Positions 2,723 to 49,128 of a stretch of 54,252 nucleotides of DNA are shown piece after piece (the first letter of the stretch is position 1; every line of letters starts with the position of its first letter). Location of the stretch: positions 1-54,252 of IMG/VR virus record IMGVR_UViG_3300021373_002055; one strand, 5' to 3'. The notes beneath the pieces are model-generated. The model made no database searches. It was not told the origin of the DNA and saw only the letters and a program-made list of their open reading frames with translations. The DNA comes from a virus. A program made the position numbers and the translations under genes.

Positions 2723-3271
2723 TCATTCAAGTAAATTGTAGTTCCAATAACGTTCTTTGTCTTCGTTATATGGATTTCCTGATTGTTGATAGTAACAGTT
2801 CATGCAAAGCATTTGCAGATTGTCTATACAATGGTTAGTCGTATCTCCGTCTTTATGATCTAATAAAAGAGGCACAGTGTCATCTGTTATGCGACGTTCT
2901 TCATAACCACAACTAGCACATTTTTCTGGCAGTATGGCTAATGCTAAAAGTCTATTGCGCAGTTTCCATATAGGATACTTAGGATGTTTGCCTAAAAGTA
3001 TATTGTCTATACTATACACTCCTCGATTGGCTTTGACTACATCTTTAGGTATTCCAACTCCGAATTGATTTTTATGAAGTTCATACAATGTCTTACCAGT
3101 AGCTCTGTCAGTATACATTCGAGCATATTTTTTATAAGATGTAAATGATATCTTAAGAAAACGAGCTGCAGCTGCATTGGACTTAGTATTTTCCATTGCA
3201 TAGCGTATATCAGACTCAGGCACATTTAACGCCGTTCTTCCTTGACCATATACATACTTATATTCACTCAT
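2723..3271 (-). CDS. HNH endonuclease
   Basis: A 182-residue protein with a C-terminal HNH domain. It shows a CxxC pair (C118, C121), LLDHKDGD with H139, a conserved Asn near 151 and a second CxxC (C156, C159). The double CxxC is the zinc-stabilised HNH form. Residues 20-55 look like a helix-turn-helix DNA-reading segment (IRYAMENTKSNAAAARFLKI). Together these suggest a sequence-specific, homing-type nuclease, common in T4-like genomes. It starts where the preceding gene stops (TAATG overlap). The target site cannot be read from this window, and a recombination or packaging role is an alternative. Confidence 0.85.
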   Translation of the reverse strand: MSEYKYVYGQGRTALNVPESDIRYAMENTKSNAAAARFLKISFTSYKKYARMYTDRATGKTLYELHKNQFGVGIPKDVVKANRGVYSIDNILLGKHPKYPIWKLRNRLLALAILPEKCASCGYEERRITDDTVPLLLDHKDGDTTNHCIDNLQMLCMNCYYQQSGNPYNEDKERYWNYNLLE

Positions 3272-3657
3272 TAATATACACCTTGTTTTCTTAAATATTC
3301 AACAGTATCTCTAATTGATGTTTTTTTAGAATATAATTCTTGTAATTCTGGTTTTAGTTTTAATGTGAAATCTACAAACGTTCTGTGATATACTCCACTC
3401 TTTTTTTGTACCGCGGCTATCCAATATGAATATACTGGGAAGTCATCATCAAAGCGATTGGCATCCGTACGGTTATTCATATACTCAATTTGATCTTTCA
3501 GTGGCCATAAGTTAAAAGGTACATCTGGTGACTTGCGTCGAGTTGGTAATAAGTCTTTGTGTTTATTACGTTTTTCGTTTCTAGTAATAAATTTATCCAT
3601 CATATTGATAGATCTGTCTTTTGGCGATTCGCCACTATGTGCTGCTTTCTTTCCCAT
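3271..3657 (-). CDS. Hypothetical protein (128 aa)
   Basis: A hydrophilic 128-residue protein, basic at the N-terminus, with a Trp/Tyr-rich middle (FPVYSYWIAAVQ). There is no signal peptide, membrane segment or recognised motif. The ATG overlaps the end of the preceding gene by 23 bases, and its own stop forms TAATG with the HNH gene start, which supports real translation in a coupled string. Family and function not recognised. Confidence 0.6.
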   Translation of the reverse strand: MGKKAAHSGESPKDRSINMMDKFITRNEKRNKHKDLLPTRRKSPDVPFNLWPLKDQIEYMNNRTDANRFDDDFPVYSYWIAAVQKKSGVYHRTFVDFTLKLKPELQELYSKKTSIRDTVEYLRKQGVY

Positions 3658-3838
3658 CGTTTGGTTTATTTTTATTTAATAATATAACTAATTTGCGCCA
3701 AGCATCTTCTGCTCGGTATATGTATTTTTTAAATTTAACTACGTTTTGTTGAGTTCTGGCGATCTGTGCCCACTTCATGTTTCGGTGATATGTAGCATGA
3801 AGAAATCCTATACGTATTGTTCTTATAAGTTTAAACAT
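3635..3838 (-). CDS. Small basic hypothetical protein (67 aa)
   Basis: A 67-residue, very basic protein rich in Arg, Lys and aromatics, starting MFKLIRTIRIGFLHATYH. It overlaps the ClpS stop by 8 bases and the next gene by 23 bases, which fits tight coupling. No family is recognised. The charge suggests nucleic-acid or membrane-surface contact, but that is a guess. Confidence 0.5.
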   Translation of the reverse strand: MFKLIRTIRIGFLHATYHRNMKWAQIARTQQNVVKFKKYIYRAEDAWRKLVILLNKNKPNDGKESST

Positions 3839-4097
3839 TTTTCTTTTGTTTTTTTACAATAACCGTTAATCCATTTTTAACTAAGTTTTCCCAAACTGAA
3901 TAACAGTTGTCATAGTTGTCTACGAATATAGAACATTTGCCGTTATTATGTGTTAATAAAGCACATTGGTTGGCTTGATATTCATTGTGCCCACATAATT
4001 CAACTAAGCACGTCATAACGTGATCGAAACTAACCGATTCGTCGTTGTGAAGTATTAATTCAAATTTACCTCTAGGCTTTGATTGTTTTTTGGACAT
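3831..4097 (-). CDS. clpS: ClpS-like ATP-dependent Clp protease adaptor
   Basis: An 88-residue ClpS-fold protein. Cellular ClpS brings N-degron substrates to ClpAP. The sequence carries FELILHNDE, the strand with the Asn-Asp pair that binds the substrate alpha-amino group, then the helix FDHVMTCLVELCGHNEYQAN, then CALLTHNNGKC and a final hydrophobic strand. It covers nearly the whole domain, and its wording is closer to Bacteroidota ClpS (NQCALxxHxxGKC) than to the E. coli protein. I prefer the ATG at 4097 (MSKKQSKP) over 4121 because it shortens the overlap with the preceding gene. I infer diversion of host Clp proteolysis, or stabilisation of phage proteins by a decoy adaptor. Confidence 0.88.
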   Translation of the reverse strand: MSKKQSKPRGKFELILHNDESVSFDHVMTCLVELCGHNEYQANQCALLTHNNGKCSIFVDNYDNCYSVWENLVKNGLTVIVKKQKKNV

Positions 4098-4275
4098 CTC
4101 TAATAATTGAACATTGTTCATATAACTCTAATTCTATTGCATATTCAAGGCTTTCGTCTAAAAATTTTTGTTTGCGTGTGTCGTCCCATCTTTCTGGCCA
4201 TTCCCAATCTGTAGTTTTCATGTGATTGATTGACCGTTTAAATAGAACCTCAACAAAATTTCTTGCTTCTTCCAT
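4072..4275 (-). CDS. Small protein with UVR-like helical motif (67 aa)
   Basis: A 67-residue acidic helical protein. Its C-terminal third (FLDESLEYAIELELYEQC followed by SIIRD) follows the spacing of the UVR motif, an E-x-A-x-E-x-(Y/F)E-x-A-x-x-(I/L)RD pattern found in UvrB/UvrC and in Clp-system partners such as McsA and ClpC. The match is by eye and imperfect. It sits directly upstream of clpS and overlaps it by about 26 bases, so a joint role in Clp control is tempting. It has its own ATG and an ATATTTAT box upstream (coding strand, 4287-4294). Confidence 0.55.
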   Translation of the reverse strand: MEEARNFVEVLFKRSINHMKTTDWEWPERWDDTRKQKFLDESLEYAIELELYEQCSIIRDVQKTIKA

Positions 4276-4312: not shown

Positions 4313-4840
4313 CTATTTTTTAGATTTTTCTAATTGATCAGCATAGTACTTGAATCTATTATAATTCCATTGCATACGCTTTTTGATACCGGGTGCACCC
4401 GTTTTATATTCATTATGATTGATGTACTCTTGTGCGGCATCTTTCCAATTATTTTGTTTCATATACTGTACTGTGTTATGAGTACTTTTCAATTCTCCAC
4501 GAAACATTGCGTTAATTAATGCCTGTTTGACATACTTTGGAAGTGTGTTAAAATTTATACCTAATGTATTTTTAATTTTACTAATAGCTTTAGACACATC
4601 CATTAATAGTAAGGTAGTTGCTTCTTTTTCTGTTATTCCTTGTGAATAGTCATCCGTCGACTTCATTTTATGACCATAAGCAATAGTATCAGTTCCGCCT
4701 TCTAAACTTCCATGGGGGAACCACTTTTTCTTTTCTTTGTCCCAGCCTCGTTTAATAGAGTTTTCAAAATATTTTAACAGATCAAGAAAACTAGTAGTAG
4801 TTACCAATGATTCATTTAATATGTTATTTAGTCTAATCAT
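4313..4840 (-). CDS. GH24-type phage lysozyme with capsid-targeting-type leader
   Basis: A 175-residue muramidase-like protein. E26 (YFENS) and the segment GGTDTIAYGHKM (residues 48-59) match the Glu...Thr-Ile-x-Tyr-Gly-His core of GH24 lysozymes. The latter half (QALINAMFRGEL, then GIKKRMQWNYNRF) matches the GH24 helical lobe. An insertion separates the catalytic Glu from the GH24 strand. The N-terminus MIRLNNILNES matches the shared leader, with a gp21-type site LNE before Ser. There is no secretion signal. It overlaps the M15 peptidase gene by 4 bases. I infer a virion-packaged wall-degrading enzyme for entry, separate from the endolysin at 13.7-14.7 kb. Confidence 0.8.
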   Translation of the reverse strand: MIRLNNILNESLVTTTSFLDLLKYFENSIKRGWDKEKKKWFPHGSLEGGTDTIAYGHKMKSTDDYSQGITEKEATTLLLMDVSKAISKIKNTLGINFNTLPKYVKQALINAMFRGELKSTHNTVQYMKQNNWKDAAQEYINHNEYKTGAPGIKKRMQWNYNRFKYYADQLEKSKK

Positions 4841-5565
4841 TTTAAATCTACATGAAAATGTGGAGCCGATTTTCCTCGTTCATCAATGTAACTACTAATT
4901 AATCCGTTGTCCTTTGCATAGTCTAAAAATTTAATAACGTTGTTATTATTTTTGCCATACTTACCTCCTCGGAACAATGATAGATCTATTGCTTTACCAG
5001 ATTGGTGTCTAGACATATATTTGCCTTGTTTTTCCATGTTTTTTAAAAATGCAATTGCTTTCCGCTTTGCTTTATTTGGCTTATCTTCATGTTCTATAAA
5101 AATAGCCTCAATTGGATCACCAGCCCATCTACCATATCCAACACCTCCCTCACTTCTAGGTTTTAGGTAATTTTTATCTCCACTCCATTGCGCCCATATT
5201 GCATTAATTTGTCTTTCAGGCCCTCGATATCCAGATGTCACTACTGGACCTATAGGTCCTAGATTAGTATTAGCATCCATCCATTGAGTATATGCATTAG
5301 CAAAATTTCTAACTTTGCCTCGTATGCCTCTTAAATTAATATCTTTTGTTTGCCAATATGAACCTCTACGTTTACGAACTGTTCTATTGCGCACATACTT
5401 CCAATCATCAGCTTTAGTAGTTTGTTTGCCTGTAGATTTATCAAATACAATATTGATCTGTTCTAGATTTTGTATTGGTGGATCACCAATGTCGTACATG
5501 TCTATAGAAACCGCAGGACCGCCTTCTTGTGTAGATTCTAATAATATGTTTTTAAGTCGTATCAT
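4837..5565 (-). CDS. M15-like peptidoglycan peptidase with capsid-targeting-type leader
   Basis: A 242-residue protein. Its C-terminal half has the D-Ala-D-Ala / L-Ala-D-Glu peptidase (M15) zinc site: SGYRG near 111-115, H187-x6-D194 in HQSGKAID, and H236-x-H238 in PHFHVD. These are the expected zinc ligands in the expected order. The N-terminal 100 residues are unassigned and may dock the protein in the virion. The leader MIRLKNILLES carries LLE before Ser, a good T4 gp21-type cleavage site. It is co-transcribed with, and overlaps, the lysozyme, so one cuts glycan and the other peptide. A TATTTATA box lies just upstream. Confidence 0.82.
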   Translation of the reverse strand: MIRLKNILLESTQEGGPAVSIDMYDIGDPPIQNLEQINIVFDKSTGKQTTKADDWKYVRNRTVRKRRGSYWQTKDINLRGIRGKVRNFANAYTQWMDANTNLGPIGPVVTSGYRGPERQINAIWAQWSGDKNYLKPRSEGGVGYGRWAGDPIEAIFIEHEDKPNKAKRKAIAFLKNMEKQGKYMSRHQSGKAIDLSLFRGGKYGKNNNNVIKFLDYAKDNGLISSYIDERGKSAPHFHVDLK

Positions 5566-5589: not shown

Positions 5590-5718
5590 TTATCTGCCTT
5601 GTCCTTTGTATTTAGACTTATGACCATTCTGTCCTTTACTGGCATTCTTTGAATGAACACCTGGACGTTTCTTTTTTTGTGTGTCTTGTTTTCCTATAGA
5701 TATGTTTCTTATTGCCAT
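5590..5718 (-). CDS. Small basic conserved protein (42 aa)
   Basis: A 42-residue, very basic, Gly/Lys-rich protein beginning MAIRNISIGKQDTQKKKRPG and ending KYKGQGR. It overlaps the preceding stop as TAATG, so it is translationally coupled. Small proteins of this wording recur in Bacteroidota and T4-like phage genomes as far as I recall, with no known function. It lacks the leader of its neighbours. Charge and size suggest nucleic-acid binding. Confidence 0.65.
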   Translation of the reverse strand: MAIRNISIGKQDTQKKKRPGVHSKNASKGQNGHKSKYKGQGR

Positions 5719-5939
5719 TATTTTTTCTTTTTCTTTTTAGACTTATTGCCCCAATTTTTTGCACCTTTCTTTCTGCATTGCACTAATGCACCAGATGCAT
5801 AAGCAGACGGCCATACTTTATAACGTCGTTTTACTTTGTGATAACAAGCGTCTCGTTTTTTCTTTTTCTTTTTACTCTTGCGTTTCTTTTTACGCTTTTC
5901 ATCAAGAGCAACTTCCAATAAGTCTTTGAGTCGTATCAT
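5718..5939 (-). CDS. Lys-rich internal head protein candidate (73 aa)
   Basis: A 73-residue protein, over a third lysine or arginine, with poly-Lys tracts on both sides of a folded core CYHKVKRRYKVWPSAYASGA, then LVQCRKKGAKNWGNKS. I recall this two-Cys core from proteins and C-terminal domains of large marine phages. The leader MIRLKDLLEVALDEK contains LLE and LDE, possible gp21-type sites, although the following Val or Lys is not ideal. The extreme charge fits a DNA-neutralising internal head protein like T4 internal proteins. It overlaps both neighbours by ATGA or TAATG. Confidence 0.65.
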   Translation of the reverse strand: MIRLKDLLEVALDEKRKKKRKSKKKKKKRDACYHKVKRRYKVWPSAYASGALVQCRKKGAKNWGNKSKKKKKK

Positions 5940-6315: not shown

Positions 6316-6822
6316 TTATATTCCTGCTTTGCGTGCCCATTCTTTTGAAACTTTATCTGAATCAATTGGTCCACCTTTAGCCCACGTGTCACACGTTCTA
6401 GCTGAATGGCATTTGAAATGATGCATCCAACAATATCCAAATCCTACGTATGCATCTTCTGGCATACCTGGAAAGTCTGATGCTGGTAAATCAGCCATCA
6501 TGCTATCTGCAACATCCATTGGGTCAGCATCTTCTAAATCTTCTGGAGCTTCGACAGTAGGTAAACACTTTTGCATTCTTTGTGAAATATCAAATGCTAC
6601 ACAATTACCACAACGCATACCTCGAGCTTCTGCAGGAGTAGCACCTTCCCATTCTTCACTCATCTTTTCCCAGTAACCATCACTTTCTGCAGATGGATTC
6701 ATTGGACCATATGCATGTTTTTTCCTAGTGCTGTTTCTGTTTTTAGTGTTGAGATCAACGTCTTGAGTTGCTGCTGGACATTTAGTTTCAGCTTCGATTA
6801 GTATGTGTTTTAATTTTTTCAT
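6316..6822 (-). CDS. Cys-rich protein with capsid-targeting-type leader (168 aa)
   Basis: A 168-residue protein with leader MKKLKHILIEAE; LIE before Ala is a near-perfect T4 gp21-type site. The body has an acidic middle and two Cys-rich stretches, MRCGNCVAFDIS near residue 70 and GYCWMHHFKCHSARTCDTW near 130-148. The spacing resembles small HiPIP-like or zinc-binding domains found in phage head-associated proteins. Metal type is undetermined. It lies directly upstream of the GTG-start gene with two bases between. Probably a packaged or head-associated protein. Confidence 0.65.
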   Translation of the reverse strand: MKKLKHILIEAETKCPAATQDVDLNTKNRNSTRKKHAYGPMNPSAESDGYWEKMSEEWEGATPAEARGMRCGNCVAFDISQRMQKCLPTVEAPEDLEDADPMDVADSMMADLPASDFPGMPEDAYVGFGYCWMHHFKCHSARTCDTWAKGGPIDSDKVSKEWARKAGI

Positions 6823-32497: not shown

Positions 32498-33754
32498 TTA
32501 AAATTTAAAAAATTTCTCGAATTGTTTAGCATCGGTAGTTGATATACTATCTCCACCAAATTTCTTGTATGTCTTTTTATATGTTGCATATACATTCATT
32601 GCATTGTCTGGATCTGCGAACATTTCGTGTAATGATAGTATAACATTAAATAATTCCTTTGGAATAGCCGTTTCTAATAATTCAACATGATTATGTGTCA
32701 ATTTATTAATGTCTTTAACAATTTCACAATACAGATGCGTATTATGAACTACCATTCGGGGCATTCCTTCTTGTGAATATCTGTCTAACCCAGTTGCTGT
32801 CTGTCCTCCTAAGTATTCATATGTAAAGTCTTTACATGCTGGGCAGTCAATACTACAAGGAACATGTTTAGTTTTGTCAATGCTTATTTCACCGTCTTTG
32901 CCTTGTTTAACATGAGTCTTTCTGCGATACTCAGCATTCTTTGGAAAATACAATTCAGTGAATGTCTGTGTCTTATAGTTGCCAGAATGAAGATATGTTC
33001 CAAATACTGGATATTGACCTGGTGAAGATGAGTCAGACATCAATTGTATGCGATTGTCTGTCAGTTTATTCAATAACTCTTGCAAGGTTGCTAATATAAA
33101 GAAATCTGATATTTTGCTTATTCCTAGCAAATGCACATATTCTACATGTTTCTTTTCAAATTCTCGTTCTTGAAGCATTAGTGCAATTACATACATAAAG
33201 TCTACTAATTTTTTAGGACCTCCTATACACCAACCTTTAAAGTCAAAGTCTTTGAACTTGTGATACCATTCTTTATATTCCTCACTAAATGTACCTTGAA
33301 TAACATTTAAGAATTTTGTCTTACCACTTTGATTTTTTTCAAACCATTTAAAATTGTCAAATGATATATCCATTGAGTCTTGAAATCTATTTTCAAATGT
33401 AACTCTAGGTGGTATATCTAAGTTTGCGGCTACATCACTATTAGCTTCTAACCAATGAAATATTTTTTCACGAATTGTGCTATCCCATTTAAGAGCACCA
33501 GTAGCAATCTGGAATCCTCCTGAGTCGCCAAATACAAATGTTTCGTCATCTAATCCCAATTGGTCACGAAAATCCATTTTCTTGTAATGATGTCCTGCTG
33601 TTACCAAAAAATATGGATGTCTCCACTTTTCGGGGTATTCTTTTGCAAAGAATCGCATTGTAGTGCCATCTTCAAATTTAGTATCCTTTTTAAATGCAGA
33701 TACCATGCTACCCGCAGATAATGACGGTATATATAAAAACTCTTTTCTATCCAT
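32498..33754 (-). CDS. dpdA: DpdA-like DNA 7-deazaguanine transglycosylase (TGT family)
   Basis: A 418-residue member of the tRNA-guanine transglycosylase superfamily. FGDSGGFQIATG (D77, base-binding Asp) is the family signature. NLDIPPRV, NVIQGTFSEEYKEWY, GWCIGGPKK and MSDSSSPG (D241, candidate nucleophile) follow. C300-x3-C304-x2-C307 and a later His give the zinc site. It lies between gp45 and gp43 genes, not with tRNA genes, and FolE, QueD and QueE are encoded 6-8 kb upstream. So DpdA, which swaps guanine in DNA for a 7-deazaguanine, is the best call; a tRNA-acting TGT is the alternative. Confidence 0.82.
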   Translation of the reverse strand: MDRKEFLYIPSLSAGSMVSAFKKDTKFEDGTTMRFFAKEYPEKWRHPYFLVTAGHHYKKMDFRDQLGLDDETFVFGDSGGFQIATGALKWDSTIREKIFHWLEANSDVAANLDIPPRVTFENRFQDSMDISFDNFKWFEKNQSGKTKFLNVIQGTFSEEYKEWYHKFKDFDFKGWCIGGPKKLVDFMYVIALMLQEREFEKKHVEYVHLLGISKISDFFILATLQELLNKLTDNRIQLMSDSSSPGQYPVFGTYLHSGNYKTQTFTELYFPKNAEYRRKTHVKQGKDGEISIDKTKHVPCSIDCPACKDFTYEYLGGQTATGLDRYSQEGMPRMVVHNTHLYCEIVKDINKLTHNHVELLETAIPKELFNVILSLHEMFADPDNAMNVYATYKKTYKKFGGDSISTTDAKQFEKFFKF

Positions 33755-38860: not shown

Positions 38861-39097
38861 TCATAACCTTTTTATATTGTCAATAGTTACACTGTTTCCT
38901 ACTATTCTTGATACTTCTTGTCCTTGTGCATCGATTCGCATAAAACAAGGAATATTTCTAACATTGTAATGGTTAGCCGTTGCCATATCTTGATCAATAT
39001 TAATTGTTCGAAATGGAACGGTTAACTGATTCAATTTAGGCTTTAATAATTTACATGGTCCGCACCATGGTGCTGTAAAATATAGTAATTGACTCAT
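38861..39097 (-). CDS. Thioredoxin (short, CGPC)
   Basis: A 78-residue thioredoxin: LLYFTAPWCGPCKLLKPKLN with the active-site CGPC, FRTINIDQDMATANHYNVRN, and IPCFMRIDAQGQEV with the cis-Pro loop. It lacks the first strand and helix of full thioredoxins (about 105 aa), as in many phage versions. The likely client is the ribonucleotide reductase. It overlaps the QueE stop by one base (TAATG). Confidence 0.9.
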   Translation of the reverse strand: MSQLLYFTAPWCGPCKLLKPKLNQLTVPFRTINIDQDMATANHYNVRNIPCFMRIDAQGQEVSRIVGNSVTIDNIKRL

Positions 39098-39867
39098 TAT
39101 ACTCCTCTTTCTGTATCATATGCAATGATGTGGTCTCTACCTGTCATATTATAACCATGTTCAGCAACCATTTCAAATACGAGTGGATACATTTTAATTA
39201 ATTCTTCTCTTGTGTCTCCAGCTGGCATAACATATGTTTTATGTTTTGGTATATTATGCAATACACGGAAGTCTTCAATTTCTTTTAAAGTTTCTTCGGT
39301 ACCATCCCATACTGGTTTATAATGATAGTCATGATGATATTTCAATGTCTTGCTAATAGCTTCATGATTCAATCTCAATCTGTTATGTGTCTTGATCATT
39401 TTTTCATCAACTATTTTACCGGCAGGAGTCTTAGTTCCGACAACCGGCACACTATTGCTAAACTTAGGTGAAAGTGACACTAAATCAAATGGCATTGGTG
39501 TTTCTATAAAATGACTACCTTCTGTTTCTACAGTTGTCATAATACCACGTTTAGATGCAAACAATGTTAATTCATTCATTAAAGCAGGATGCATTGTGGG
39601 AGAACCTCCCGTTATCATCATCTCTTTAACTTGTGGATTAGCATCATATATGTCTACAATGTCTTGAAAGCAAAATGTGCCTTTTTCTGGATGTATACTA
39701 GTATACCATGAATCACACCAACCACCTTCGCCAAAATAACATCGATGAGTACATCCGGTTGTTCTTATTGCTATAGTGGGCATTCCGAATCTACTGCCTT
39801 CACTTTGCACACATCTGTATACTTCTAATACAGGTAATCTTTTTTTATAATCTTCTATTCGTTTCAT
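39097..39867 (-). CDS. queE: QueE-like 7-carboxy-7-deazaguanine synthase
   Basis: A 256-residue radical SAM enzyme. VQSEGSRFGMPTIAIRTTGC carries the QueE Q-x-E-G...G-x-P signature. C39, C43 and C51 (GCTHRC...WCDS) bind the 4Fe-4S cluster, and MMITGGSPTMHP is the GGE-like SAM motif. It turns 6-carboxytetrahydropterin into 7-carboxy-7-deazaguanine. I place the start at the ATG at 39867, one base after the upstream stop; a longer frame would begin at 39915. Same string as queD and folE. Confidence 0.9.
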   Translation of the reverse strand: MKRIEDYKKRLPVLEVYRCVQSEGSRFGMPTIAIRTTGCTHRCYFGEGGWCDSWYTSIHPEKGTFCFQDIVDIYDANPQVKEMMITGGSPTMHPALMNELTLFASKRGIMTTVETEGSHFIETPMPFDLVSLSPKFSNSVPVVGTKTPAGKIVDEKMIKTHNRLRLNHEAISKTLKYHHDYHYKPVWDGTEETLKEIEDFRVLHNIPKHKTYVMPAGDTREELIKMYPLVFEMVAEHGYNMTGRDHIIAYDTERGV

Positions 39868-39868
39868 A

Positions 39869-40207
39869 CTAGAATGGGAGGTCATCGGCAGGGCCGACAT
39901 TACTATTGGTAACATTTATTAATTCATTTAATTTATTTTCTAATCGAGTAACTTTATCATGTAACATATCAAACTGATCTTTACGTACTAATATCTGTTC
40001 AGGTCGTTTATATATACTGTCTAAAAAGTCTATAGGCCATGTTGCAACTGATTTATACTTATCATTTTGCAATTCTTCTGGTAACATCTTGGTTCCTGAC
40101 TTGATGCCTCGACTTGCTGCTAACTCAGCAACTCGTATGCCGTCATCAGAGTTAGCAGTAGACCGACCTAAATAGTCATATAAAGATACATATACAGTTT
40201 TACTCAT
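39869..40207 (-). CDS. Hypothetical protein between queE and queD (112 aa)
   Basis: A 112-residue protein from the ATG at 40207, which overlaps the queD stop by 8 bases: MSKTVYVSLYDYLGRSTANS, then an acidic/helical middle, a C-terminal coiled coil (FDMLHDKVTRLENKLNELIN) and a disordered end. It is not QueC: the ATP-PPase SGGxDS motif is absent. Being locked between two pathway genes, it may aid modification, but I cannot support a function. Confidence 0.6.
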   Translation of the reverse strand: MSKTVYVSLYDYLGRSTANSDDGIRVAELAASRGIKSGTKMLPEELQNDKYKSVATWPIDFLDSIYKRPEQILVRKDQFDMLHDKVTRLENKLNELINVTNSNVGPADDLPF

Positions 40208-40661
40208 AACTTGCTGAATTTTTAGCGTGTTCGTATACTTCAACTTTACTAGCTCTTACACGACCGTCTGTTTCTTTAAGTAAGAATCCATTGATAACCT
40301 TATATAAAAACTCTGCAAACTTTTCGCACCCAGTATCATCAATAACTCTGAGTTGAATAATACCTTGTGCATCCATCATTCTGAATGAATCTAGCTCTGG
40401 GTCGTCGTTTGCTATGATTACTGTGTGATCTAATAACCAATCAAAATAATCTTTCGGAGCATATCCATTTATTTCGTGTTTAGAACGTTTCATACCACCA
40501 AAGTCAAATACCCAGTTGCGATGATCCAATTCTCCTTCAAACCATACTCGAAATGATAGTGCATATCCATGTAAATAACTACAATGCGTTTCAGTTGCTT
40601 TCCATTGTCGGAAACAAGTTGAGTATCCGTCAAATAATTTAGTTGATGTAAATTTAGCCAT
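40200..40661 (-). CDS. queD: QueD-like 6-carboxytetrahydropterin synthase
   Basis: A 153-residue T-fold enzyme. YSTCFRQWKATETHCSYLHG gives the Cys27-x3-His31-Gly core, VFDFGGMKRS the conserved Asp-Phe-Gly strand, LLDHTVII the catalytic Asp-His and VEVYEHAKNSASY the final Glu strand. The second zinc His of E. coli QueD (H33) is Tyr here and the first (H16) looks like Cys, so the metal site differs. It converts dihydroneopterin triphosphate to 6-carboxytetrahydropterin. Overlaps folE by 8 bases. Confidence 0.88.
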   Translation of the reverse strand: MAKFTSTKLFDGYSTCFRQWKATETHCSYLHGYALSFRVWFEGELDHRNWVFDFGGMKRSKHEINGYAPKDYFDWLLDHTVIIANDDPELDSFRMMDAQGIIQLRVIDDTGCEKFAEFLYKVINGFLLKETDGRVRASKVEVYEHAKNSASYE

Positions 40662-41319
40662 TATATCCTTTTACAAATTCATAATATTCATTTCTAGTTG
40701 CTGGGTCGTCTTTGAATGCACCTGTCAGTTTGCTTGTCTTCATTGATGCACCTCCGTGCTTAACACCTCTACATGATACACAATTATGGGTAGCATCAAT
40801 CATAACAGCAACACCTTTATTGTCATTGATAATAGTATCAATTGAATTGTGTATAGCAACAGTTAGTTGTTCTTGAATAGCACCACGTCTTGCAAAATGC
40901 TCTACTAATCTATTCAATTTACTCAAACCAATTACTTTGCTATCGTTACCTGGAATATATGCTACATGCACTTTACCCATAATGGTTTGATGATGATGTG
41001 AACACATTGATGTTAATGGAATACCTCCTTCGAATACCATACCGTCATATCCATCACTAGGAAATGCAGTAATATTAGGAGCACCATTATATCTACCTGC
41101 CCATAAATCGTTTACATATGCTTTTGCAACACGATGTGGTGTATTGTCTGAGTTTGGATCATTTCTCCAATCACATTTAAGTGCATCTAAAAACAAACCA
41201 AATGCATTTGCTGCAGCATTAATCATTGTAGCTTTCTGATTTTCAGTGAGAGGCTCATTCTGAGCCACACCATTAGCAAAGCCTTCTTTAACTAGTTCTA
41301 TACTTTTCTTTATTGTCAT
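40654..41319 (-). CDS. folE: GTP cyclohydrolase I
   Basis: A 221-residue FolE: NTPHRVAKAYVNDL, then TSMCSHHHQTIMGKVHVAYI (zinc Cys and His, active-site His), GLSKLNRLVEHFARRGAIQE and NCVSCRGVKHGGASM (second zinc Cys). It opens GTP to 7,8-dihydroneopterin triphosphate. With QueD and QueE downstream it feeds the 7-deazaguanine path and not folate alone. It has an AAAGGAA ribosome site. Confidence 0.93.
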   Translation of the reverse strand: MTIKKSIELVKEGFANGVAQNEPLTENQKATMINAAANAFGLFLDALKCDWRNDPNSDNTPHRVAKAYVNDLWAGRYNGAPNITAFPSDGYDGMVFEGGIPLTSMCSHHHQTIMGKVHVAYIPGNDSKVIGLSKLNRLVEHFARRGAIQEQLTVAIHNSIDTIINDNKGVAVMIDATHNCVSCRGVKHGGASMKTSKLTGAFKDDPATRNEYYEFVKGYNG

Positions 41320-48027: not shown

Positions 48028-48393
48028 TTAGTAGCGCATTTTGTCTAAGTTGCGTTTTAATTCTGAAATGAAACGATCATAATTATGTGTTCCATAACTG
48101 TCTTCAAGTACCCTAGCAACAGCAAATGCAAGATCTTGATATGACATTGAGTCATTGATGTTGTTAATTGCATCGTAAATATCTTCGGCTAATTGCTCTC
48201 CCGTTGGATTTGCATCTAGTTTAGTATGACTAGCATCTTGTGGTACATAATAATGCCCGCCTGGATCAAATTCTGAATCACCTTGTTCTTTTAAATTAGA
48301 TTCATGTTTAGCAGTTGCATCTGCTAATGTCGGCAAAGAACCATCTGATTTACGCTCCCACGCATATCCTTCTAGTAGTTGTTTTAGTTTCAT
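48028..48393 (-). CDS. Protein with capsid-targeting-type leader (121 aa)
   Basis: A 121-residue acidic protein with N-terminus MKLKQLLEGYAWE. LLE before Gly matches the T4 gp21 consensus, as in the proteins at 2.0-6.8 kb. The rest is a Gly/Asp region (DPGGHYYVPQDAS) and a helical domain (EDIYDAINNINDSMSYQDLA). Function not recognised. Predicted head-packaged, by leader only. It has an AAAAGGAA ribosome site. Confidence 0.6.
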   Translation of the reverse strand: MKLKQLLEGYAWERKSDGSLPTLADATAKHESNLKEQGDSEFDPGGHYYVPQDASHTKLDANPTGEQLAEDIYDAINNINDSMSYQDLAFAVARVLEDSYGTHNYDRFISELKRNLDKMRY

Positions 48394-48408: not shown

Positions 48409-49128
48409 TTAAAATCCAGGTACTTCATCAAACCCCTGGCCAGGATCTTTTCGTTTCAAATAGTAACCAATCTCTCGGTCATCGATACCATACTGTTTAG
48501 CTACTTGTGGATCTTCAATTTCCATGCTTTCAACGTTACCATCTTCATCAAATATCATTTTTAAATCTATGGTAGTTCCGTCTTGTATTAGTATTTCACA
48601 ATCTGCTTTAAATTCACTGCTTTCTAATCTGGTTTGATCATATGCTGGATTGCCGTCGTCATCCGTTTGATTGGTAGACTCGGCATCTGTTATTAAAGTT
48701 TGTATACCGTCTATGACACGATCTTTTGTTAACAATGTTTCTGGTTTGAATGGTAACCAAACCGTATTGAAATTGGTGCTACCATCGATGCTATTGATAA
48801 ATATTTGAATTCTTGCTGCATCAGTCATTTCAATGGTATCCGGATCCATTTCAGTATTTTCACCGTTATAATCTTGATATGCATCAATTGAAAATTTAGC
48901 TAATGAATCAGGATCGTGTGCTATATAATAAACATCTCGACCTTCATTTCCATGATCTTCTACAACATCCATGTCATCATACTCGCCAAAATCAATTACG
49001 TATTTCTTTCCATAATATGTAAATGAAGCTACATCTGTTTTGTAGTCGAATTTTACATTTTGTAATGCAGGTTCTTTGAATTGCCTACGAGACATTTGTT
49101 CTGTTATTAAATCTTTAAGTCGAATCAT
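48409..49128 (-). CDS. Protein with capsid-targeting-type leader (239 aa)
   Basis: A 239-residue acidic, beta-rich protein. The N-terminus MIRLKDLITEQMSRR has the shared leader with ITE as possible gp21-type site (Gln after it is not ideal). The body (DVASFTYYGKKYVIDFGEYD, DLKMIFDEDGNVESMEIEDP) shows no enzyme motif. It ends FDEVPGF. A box ATATTTAT lies upstream (49150-49157). Likely internal or structural, unproven. Confidence 0.6.
   Translation of the reverse strand: MIRLKDLITEQMSRRQFKEPALQNVKFDYKTDVASFTYYGKKYVIDFGEYDDMDVVEDHGNEGRDVYYIAHDPDSLAKFSIDAYQDYNGENTEMDPDTIEMTDAARIQIFINSIDGSTNFNTVWLPFKPETLLTKDRVIDGIQTLITDAESTNQTDDDGNPAYDQTRLESSEFKADCEILIQDGTTIDLKMIFDEDGNVESMEIEDPQVAKQYGIDDREIGYYLKRKDPGQGFDEVPGF

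Follow-up and report, generated by a model that had tools for sequence, protein, structure and literature searches.

Why should a T4-like phage of Bacteroidota maintain a gene for ClpS, a small host adaptor that selects the proteins degraded by Clp, and what might the phage protein do to Clp proteolysis in the infected cell? The question is raised by a locus in the linear IMG/VR record IMGVR_UViG_3300021373_002055, all 54,252 nt of which were analyzed (hereafter, the window). ClpS has been described in phages before: Iyer and colleagues noted several jumbo phages that encode it and suggested that it recruits targets to host ClpAP (PMC7824862), and Atu_ph07 also carries it (PMC6102473). The first-pass annotation of this DNA supposed that few phages encode ClpS, a view at odds with these published cases and with our profile scan, in which relatives were encoded in at least 546 IMG/VR stretches. 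Among annotated phage genomes, ClpS was present in three huge phages, and jumbo phages of Serratia and Erwinia gave weak matches. A phage ClpS is thus nothing new in itself; the novelty lies in its fixed status in the lineage described here. In the literature we found no experiment on a phage-borne Clp inhibitor or on the function of a phage ClpS.

The gene and the parts of its product considered below are as follows.

Positions 3831..4097, minus strand: clpS, 88 aa, with the ClpS core fold (beta-alpha-alpha-beta-alpha-beta; Pfam, AlphaFold2, and Foldseek).
Positions 4068..4097, minus strand: short basic tail MSKKQSKPRG, the place of the delivery extension in bacterial ClpS (length and charge comparison).
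Positions 4038..4046, minus strand: N18-D19-E20, equivalent to E. coli N34-D35-D36 (alignment to E. coli ClpS).
Positions 3948..3950, minus strand: H50, equivalent to the amine contact H66 of E. coli (alignment).
Positions 3933..3941, minus strand: GKC strand, G53-K54-C55 (sequence).

The minus-strand ORF at 3831-4097 had been proposed to encode ClpS, and Pfam and fold agree. It matched the Pfam ClpS family (PF02617) with E=1e-12 and 48.1 bits (cut-off 23), at the one ClpS place revealed by a search of the whole record. The AlphaFold2 model, for which an alignment of 40 relatives was the input, had a mean pLDDT of 90.2, and all 38 of its Foldseek matches in the PDB with E<=0.001 were ClpS (TM up to 0.85), one of them being the ClpS portion of a malarial fusion protein. 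The top match was M. smegmatis ClpS with a bound dipeptide (TMq 0.84 at 0.9 A; rmsd range, 0.7-0.9), and the model also retrieved annotated phage ClpS from a viral structure library. The Asn-Asp pair and GKC strand noticed earlier were both located, as N18-D19 and G53-K54-C55 (88-aa numbering), and the Cys of the strand is kept in 36/36 lineage and 73/77 Bacteroidota sequences. The window ORF is a genuine gene encoding a true ClpS.

The ORF listing gives a 96-aa form (3831-4121) with an internal ATG at 4097 (88 aa), and the inner start had been given earlier. Since 14 of 64 distinct relatives have an in-frame stop among the 22 codons that precede the N34 position, making a longer start impossible, and since in the window the extra 8 codons of the 96-aa form fall within the upstream gene, which overlaps clpS at its 3' end, translation likely begins at 4097 rather than 4121. 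In several relatives (L007, L009, L043, and L053-L056), the stop falls between the two start positions. The internal ATG is missing in two others (L035 and L038), so the longer form is possible in some relatives. A conserved MNNVQL N-terminus was considered as an evolved N-terminal extension but set aside, since it falls inside the region shared with the upstream gene and is broken by stops in several lineages.

The clpS gene is the second of a five-gene block, in the order U67, ClpS, D67, 128-aa protein, and HNH protein, and in the window each gene overlaps the next. Its other members are:

Positions 4072..4275, minus strand: U67, a 67-aa three-helix protein (51/51 loci; 26-nt overlap with clpS).
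Positions 3635..3838, minus strand: D67, a 67-aa basic protein with no function assigned (51/51 loci, family alignment; 8-nt overlap with clpS).
Positions 3271..3657, minus strand: 128-aa conserved protein with no function assigned (51/51 loci).
Positions 2723..3271, minus strand: HNH endonuclease-like protein (PHROG 14736, E=2e-15).

The order of the first four genes was kept in all 51 window-clade relatives, and the HNH gene came next in 49 of them; in L017 and L056 the contig stops before the HNH position. To avoid bias from a ClpS-based search, we also used the 128-aa and HNH proteins as baits. ClpS was present in 80/80 loci fetched with the former and in 78/78 loci newly fetched with the latter, and the two sets together showed the full block in a single order in 157 of 158 cases (one lacked an HNH match), although these sets comprise best matches with contigs in common and more distant, ClpS-less relatives are possible. 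In this environmental lineage of T4-like Bacteroidota phages, ClpS is therefore a fixed core gene, whereas phage ClpS has so far been regarded as an extra that turns up sporadically. The HNH gene is the most conserved of the block (84% mean column identity), far above its neighbors, and conservation of this degree, unusual for a homing-type endonuclease, suggests that its product has a core function.

Could the gene instead be host contamination, or a decayed passenger? That the contig is metagenomic is the one point in favor of contamination, but the same contig encodes a T4-type DNA polymerase, clamp loader, UvsX, and helicase, and an identical block recurs in more than 150 fetched loci. Contamination was ruled out by this synteny and phage gene content. 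Decay is opposed by pairwise dN/dS values for ClpS of 0.06-0.31 outside the overlap (i.e., <0.32); the lineage ClpS is under purifying selection. We regard the chance that either explanation holds as negligible. The identity of the host is indicated by a repeat-containing protein of 791 aa that bears a sorting tail for type IX secretion (PF18962; 11060-13435, minus strand) and by cellular ClpS, for which the best 80 loci among GTDB species were all from Bacteroidota, bearing out the "Bacteroidota-like" wording of the first-pass annotation. Together, the sorting tail and these matches point to a Bacteroidota host.

In a ClpS tree of 136 sequences and 76 columns, whose deeper order is without resolution, the clade forms a single group nested among Bacteroidota ClpS (SH-aLRT 78 alone, 98 with L057), and the branches with strong support cannot be reconciled with fewer than three origins of viral ClpS. 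The phage copy shares with the Bacteroidota branch of bacterial ClpS its fold, core length, and pocket wall, as well as Phe at the gatekeeper site and a two-residue deletion after GK, and the window has the triad N/E/H. On this sequence evidence, the lineage ClpS descends from a gene acquired from a Bacteroidota cell. Among the features proper to the phage are a basic C-terminal extension and the operon in which the gene is fixed. ClpS of jumbo and huge phages (Serratia BF, Klebsiella RaK2, Agrobacterium Atu_ph07; LR745206, LR756502, and LR756504) is likewise phage-borne, and host Clp is its proposed target (PMC7824862). However, the huge-phage proteins have separate origins in the tree and a host-like tail length, and they occur alongside ClpP, whereas in this lineage ClpS stands alone in a fixed block. 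The huge phages with LR accessions (L003, L004, and L005, respectively; 635-642 kb) have 2-3 ClpP genes besides ClpS, and a Clp_N ATPase was not found in LR745206, the sole huge-phage record searched for it.

Whether the phage protein could act as an ordinary N-recognin depends on its binding pocket. The roles of the triad residues are taken from Asn47, Asp49, and His79 of Caulobacter ClpS (PMC12493166). By alignment, the window triad is complete (N18, E20, and H50); N18 and E20 are the predicted contacts of the N-degron alpha-amino group, and the stretch that holds them would also form part of the pocket wall. At E. coli positions 32, 33, 38, 40, 43, 62, 65, and 99, the aligned window residues are L, H, V, F, V, A, T, and L, all within the Bacteroidota classes except for V in place of N at 38. 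The comparison of key residues with host ClpS suggested at first pass, run here by alignment, showed no loss of pocket residues in the window copy. Since its own triad is intact, the window copy may bind N-degrons normally. Three E. coli residues known as contacts of the Clp ATPase N-domain, E79, E82, and K84 (PMC12493166), are N, N, and Y in the window, and these positions are not conserved in Bacteroidota ClpS either. The intact triad and hydrophobic pocket are the main argument that the phage hijacks the canonical pathway, its ClpS raising N-degron delivery to host ClpCP so as to remove host or unwanted phage proteins. Such a delivery role has been proposed for jumbo-phage ClpS (PMC7824862), and the hosts have ClpC and, mostly, Aat. 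However, the host has a ClpS of its own, the phage tail is short and basic, and the triad is complete in only a minority of lineage copies, all of which makes ordinary delivery somewhat unlikely, though an explanation to be taken seriously.

Indeed, the full triad (N, D/E, H) was present in 77/77 Bacteroidota ClpS but in only 14/64 distinct clade copies, being changed in the other 50; since a strict pattern missed 22 loci, this count is biased to the less divergent copies. Site by site among the 64, position 36 is acidic in 23, position 34 is Asn in 47, and position 66 is His in 54. The replacements are D36 to N, S, or Q, N34 to D, and H66 to D, and changes recur on the tree, at least six times at site 36 and at least four times at site 34. 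The hydrophobic wall, as judged from the alignment, is kept across the lineage. Recurrent change at the amine contacts beside a conserved wall would fit a recognin altered to read other N-termini, e.g., those lacking the usual charged amino group, with N34, D36, and H66 exchanged. The replacements are nonetheless many and different, which is more like relaxed constraint than a single new specificity, and the window retains the original triad. We therefore consider a new specificity quite improbable.

The N-terminal tail also sets the lineage apart. E. coli ClpS inserts a 25-residue N-terminal extension in the ClpA channel, and delivery stops when entry is blocked (PMC9663308). Window ClpS has 17 residues before the N34 position, compared to 26 in Bacteroidota (the commonest value) and 33 in E. 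coli. Measured from the inner start, tails in the clade are mostly about 9-12 residues, versus about 18 in Bacteroidota; that of the window is about 9 residues from the ATG at 4097 and about 17 from the ATG at 4121. Taken from the inner start, the phage tail is basic and spans roughly 9 residues where cellular ClpS has 18 (Bacteroidota) or 25 (E. coli). Mean net charge over the 12 residues before the core was +5.06 in the lineage and -2.03 in hosts.

Searches of the lineage's long records, themselves perhaps incomplete, revealed no Clp_N, Aat, or ClpP, so the viral ClpS would have to act via host ClpC. ClpS and Clp_N ATPases were present in 9/9 Bacteroidota genomes searched and Aat in 7/9; the Bacteroidota ATPase tested, of ~850 aa, is of the ClpC type with a UVR motif. 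Two precedents bear on what a docked but poorly delivering ClpS could do. E. coli ClpS blocks the degradation of ssrA substrates (PMC9663308), and Leptospira ClpS1, whose triad is altered to Asp30/Asn32/Asp62, retains ClpA binding, reduces the ATPase activity of ClpA, and suppresses degradation of ssrA-GFP (PMC12493166). Some lineage copies share with Leptospira ClpS1 the Asp/Asn exchange and the His to Asp change in the triad; Leptospira ClpS1 differs in being cellular, in having a 22-residue N-domain and a Tyr gatekeeper, and in its known biochemistry. Because of these precedents, we rank shielding or switching of ClpCP first. The phage ClpS would dock on the host ClpC ATPase, compete with and displace the host's own ClpS, and so alter the choice of substrates by ClpCP in the infected cell; with poor delivery, ClpCP would be diverted or restrained, and phage or tagged proteins might be shielded. 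Shielding is favored over N-degron delivery because the tail is short and basic and the amine triad is altered in most copies. Against it stand the intact triad of the window (N, E, and H) and the possible use of the outer start, since the 96-aa form would have a tail of host-like length. Docking, competition, shielding, and the direction of the effect are all inferred, and our preference is a tentative one, at a little under even confidence. The first-pass annotation had offered two roles, feeding chosen host proteins to ClpAP or protecting phage proteins as a decoy. The altered triads of most relatives and the short basic tail lean to shielding or switching. The natural variants at the residues that recognize N-degrons provide a ready set for dissecting docking, delivery, and inhibition, and the lineage is a direct route to testing for phage rewiring of ClpCP proteolysis in Bacteroidota.

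The gene upstream of clpS may bear on shielding as well. In chloroplasts, ClpF, a UVR protein, and ClpS1 form a binary adaptor on a UVR-bearing ClpC (PMC7966870), and U67 may carry a UVR hairpin. Its AlphaFold2 model (pLDDT 93.4) has three helices, the last hairpin of which, ELYEQCSIIRD, weakly resembles QKYEEAAKLRD of the host ClpC UVR motif. By hhalign, U67 aligned with the host ClpC UVR at the right place with P=0.037, 9 of 200 shuffles being equally good; against McsA 133-173, identity was 22% and Z 4.8, within noise for small helical bundles. The Pfam UVR model (PF02151) matched none of 31 U67 members, Pfam and PHROG scans of U67 returned nothing, its profile found no UVR proteins among PDB sequences and host genomes, and Foldseek gave no PDB match at E<=0.001. 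Unlike ClpF, U67 has no YccV domain, and its pairing with ClpS is by gene overlap alone. The likeness of the hairpin to UVR is weak and is kept as a lead. If U67 mimicked a ClpC or McsA UVR hairpin and ClpS, its amine pocket worn and its tail short and basic, docked without delivering, the two could together shut or retarget host ClpCP during infection, and their overlapping genes would be a joint module, like the plant ClpF pairing. We think such a two-protein Clp control module improbable.

It had also been suggested that ClpS handles N-termini freed by a gp21-type prohead protease, and many proteins with MIRLKxxLxE leaders are indeed encoded in the same genome. Across the lineage, however, the predicted P1' residues of 88 leader-bearing N-termini, some of them near-duplicates, included Gly (23), Ala (19), Ser (13), and Phe (2), with no Leu, Trp, or Tyr. 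Since the new first residues are mostly Gly, Ala, and Ser, the cut would make no canonical ClpS substrates. Moreover, leader cleavage in T4 takes place inside the prohead. The suggestion was accordingly dropped, and we give it very little chance of being correct. In the window, leaders of this type occur at 4313-4840, 4837-5565, 5718-5939, 6316-6822, 48028-48393, and 48409-49128 (minus strand); they fit cleavage after [LI]xE, mostly with small residues next, across relatives.

Elsewhere in the window, genes for QueE (39097-39915), a QueD-like 6-pyruvoyl-tetrahydropterin synthase (40200-40661), GTP cyclohydrolase (40654-41319), and a TGT-like protein (32498-33754) lie on the minus strand. Together, these four genes resemble a pathway to 7-deazaguanine, which might serve in DNA modification.
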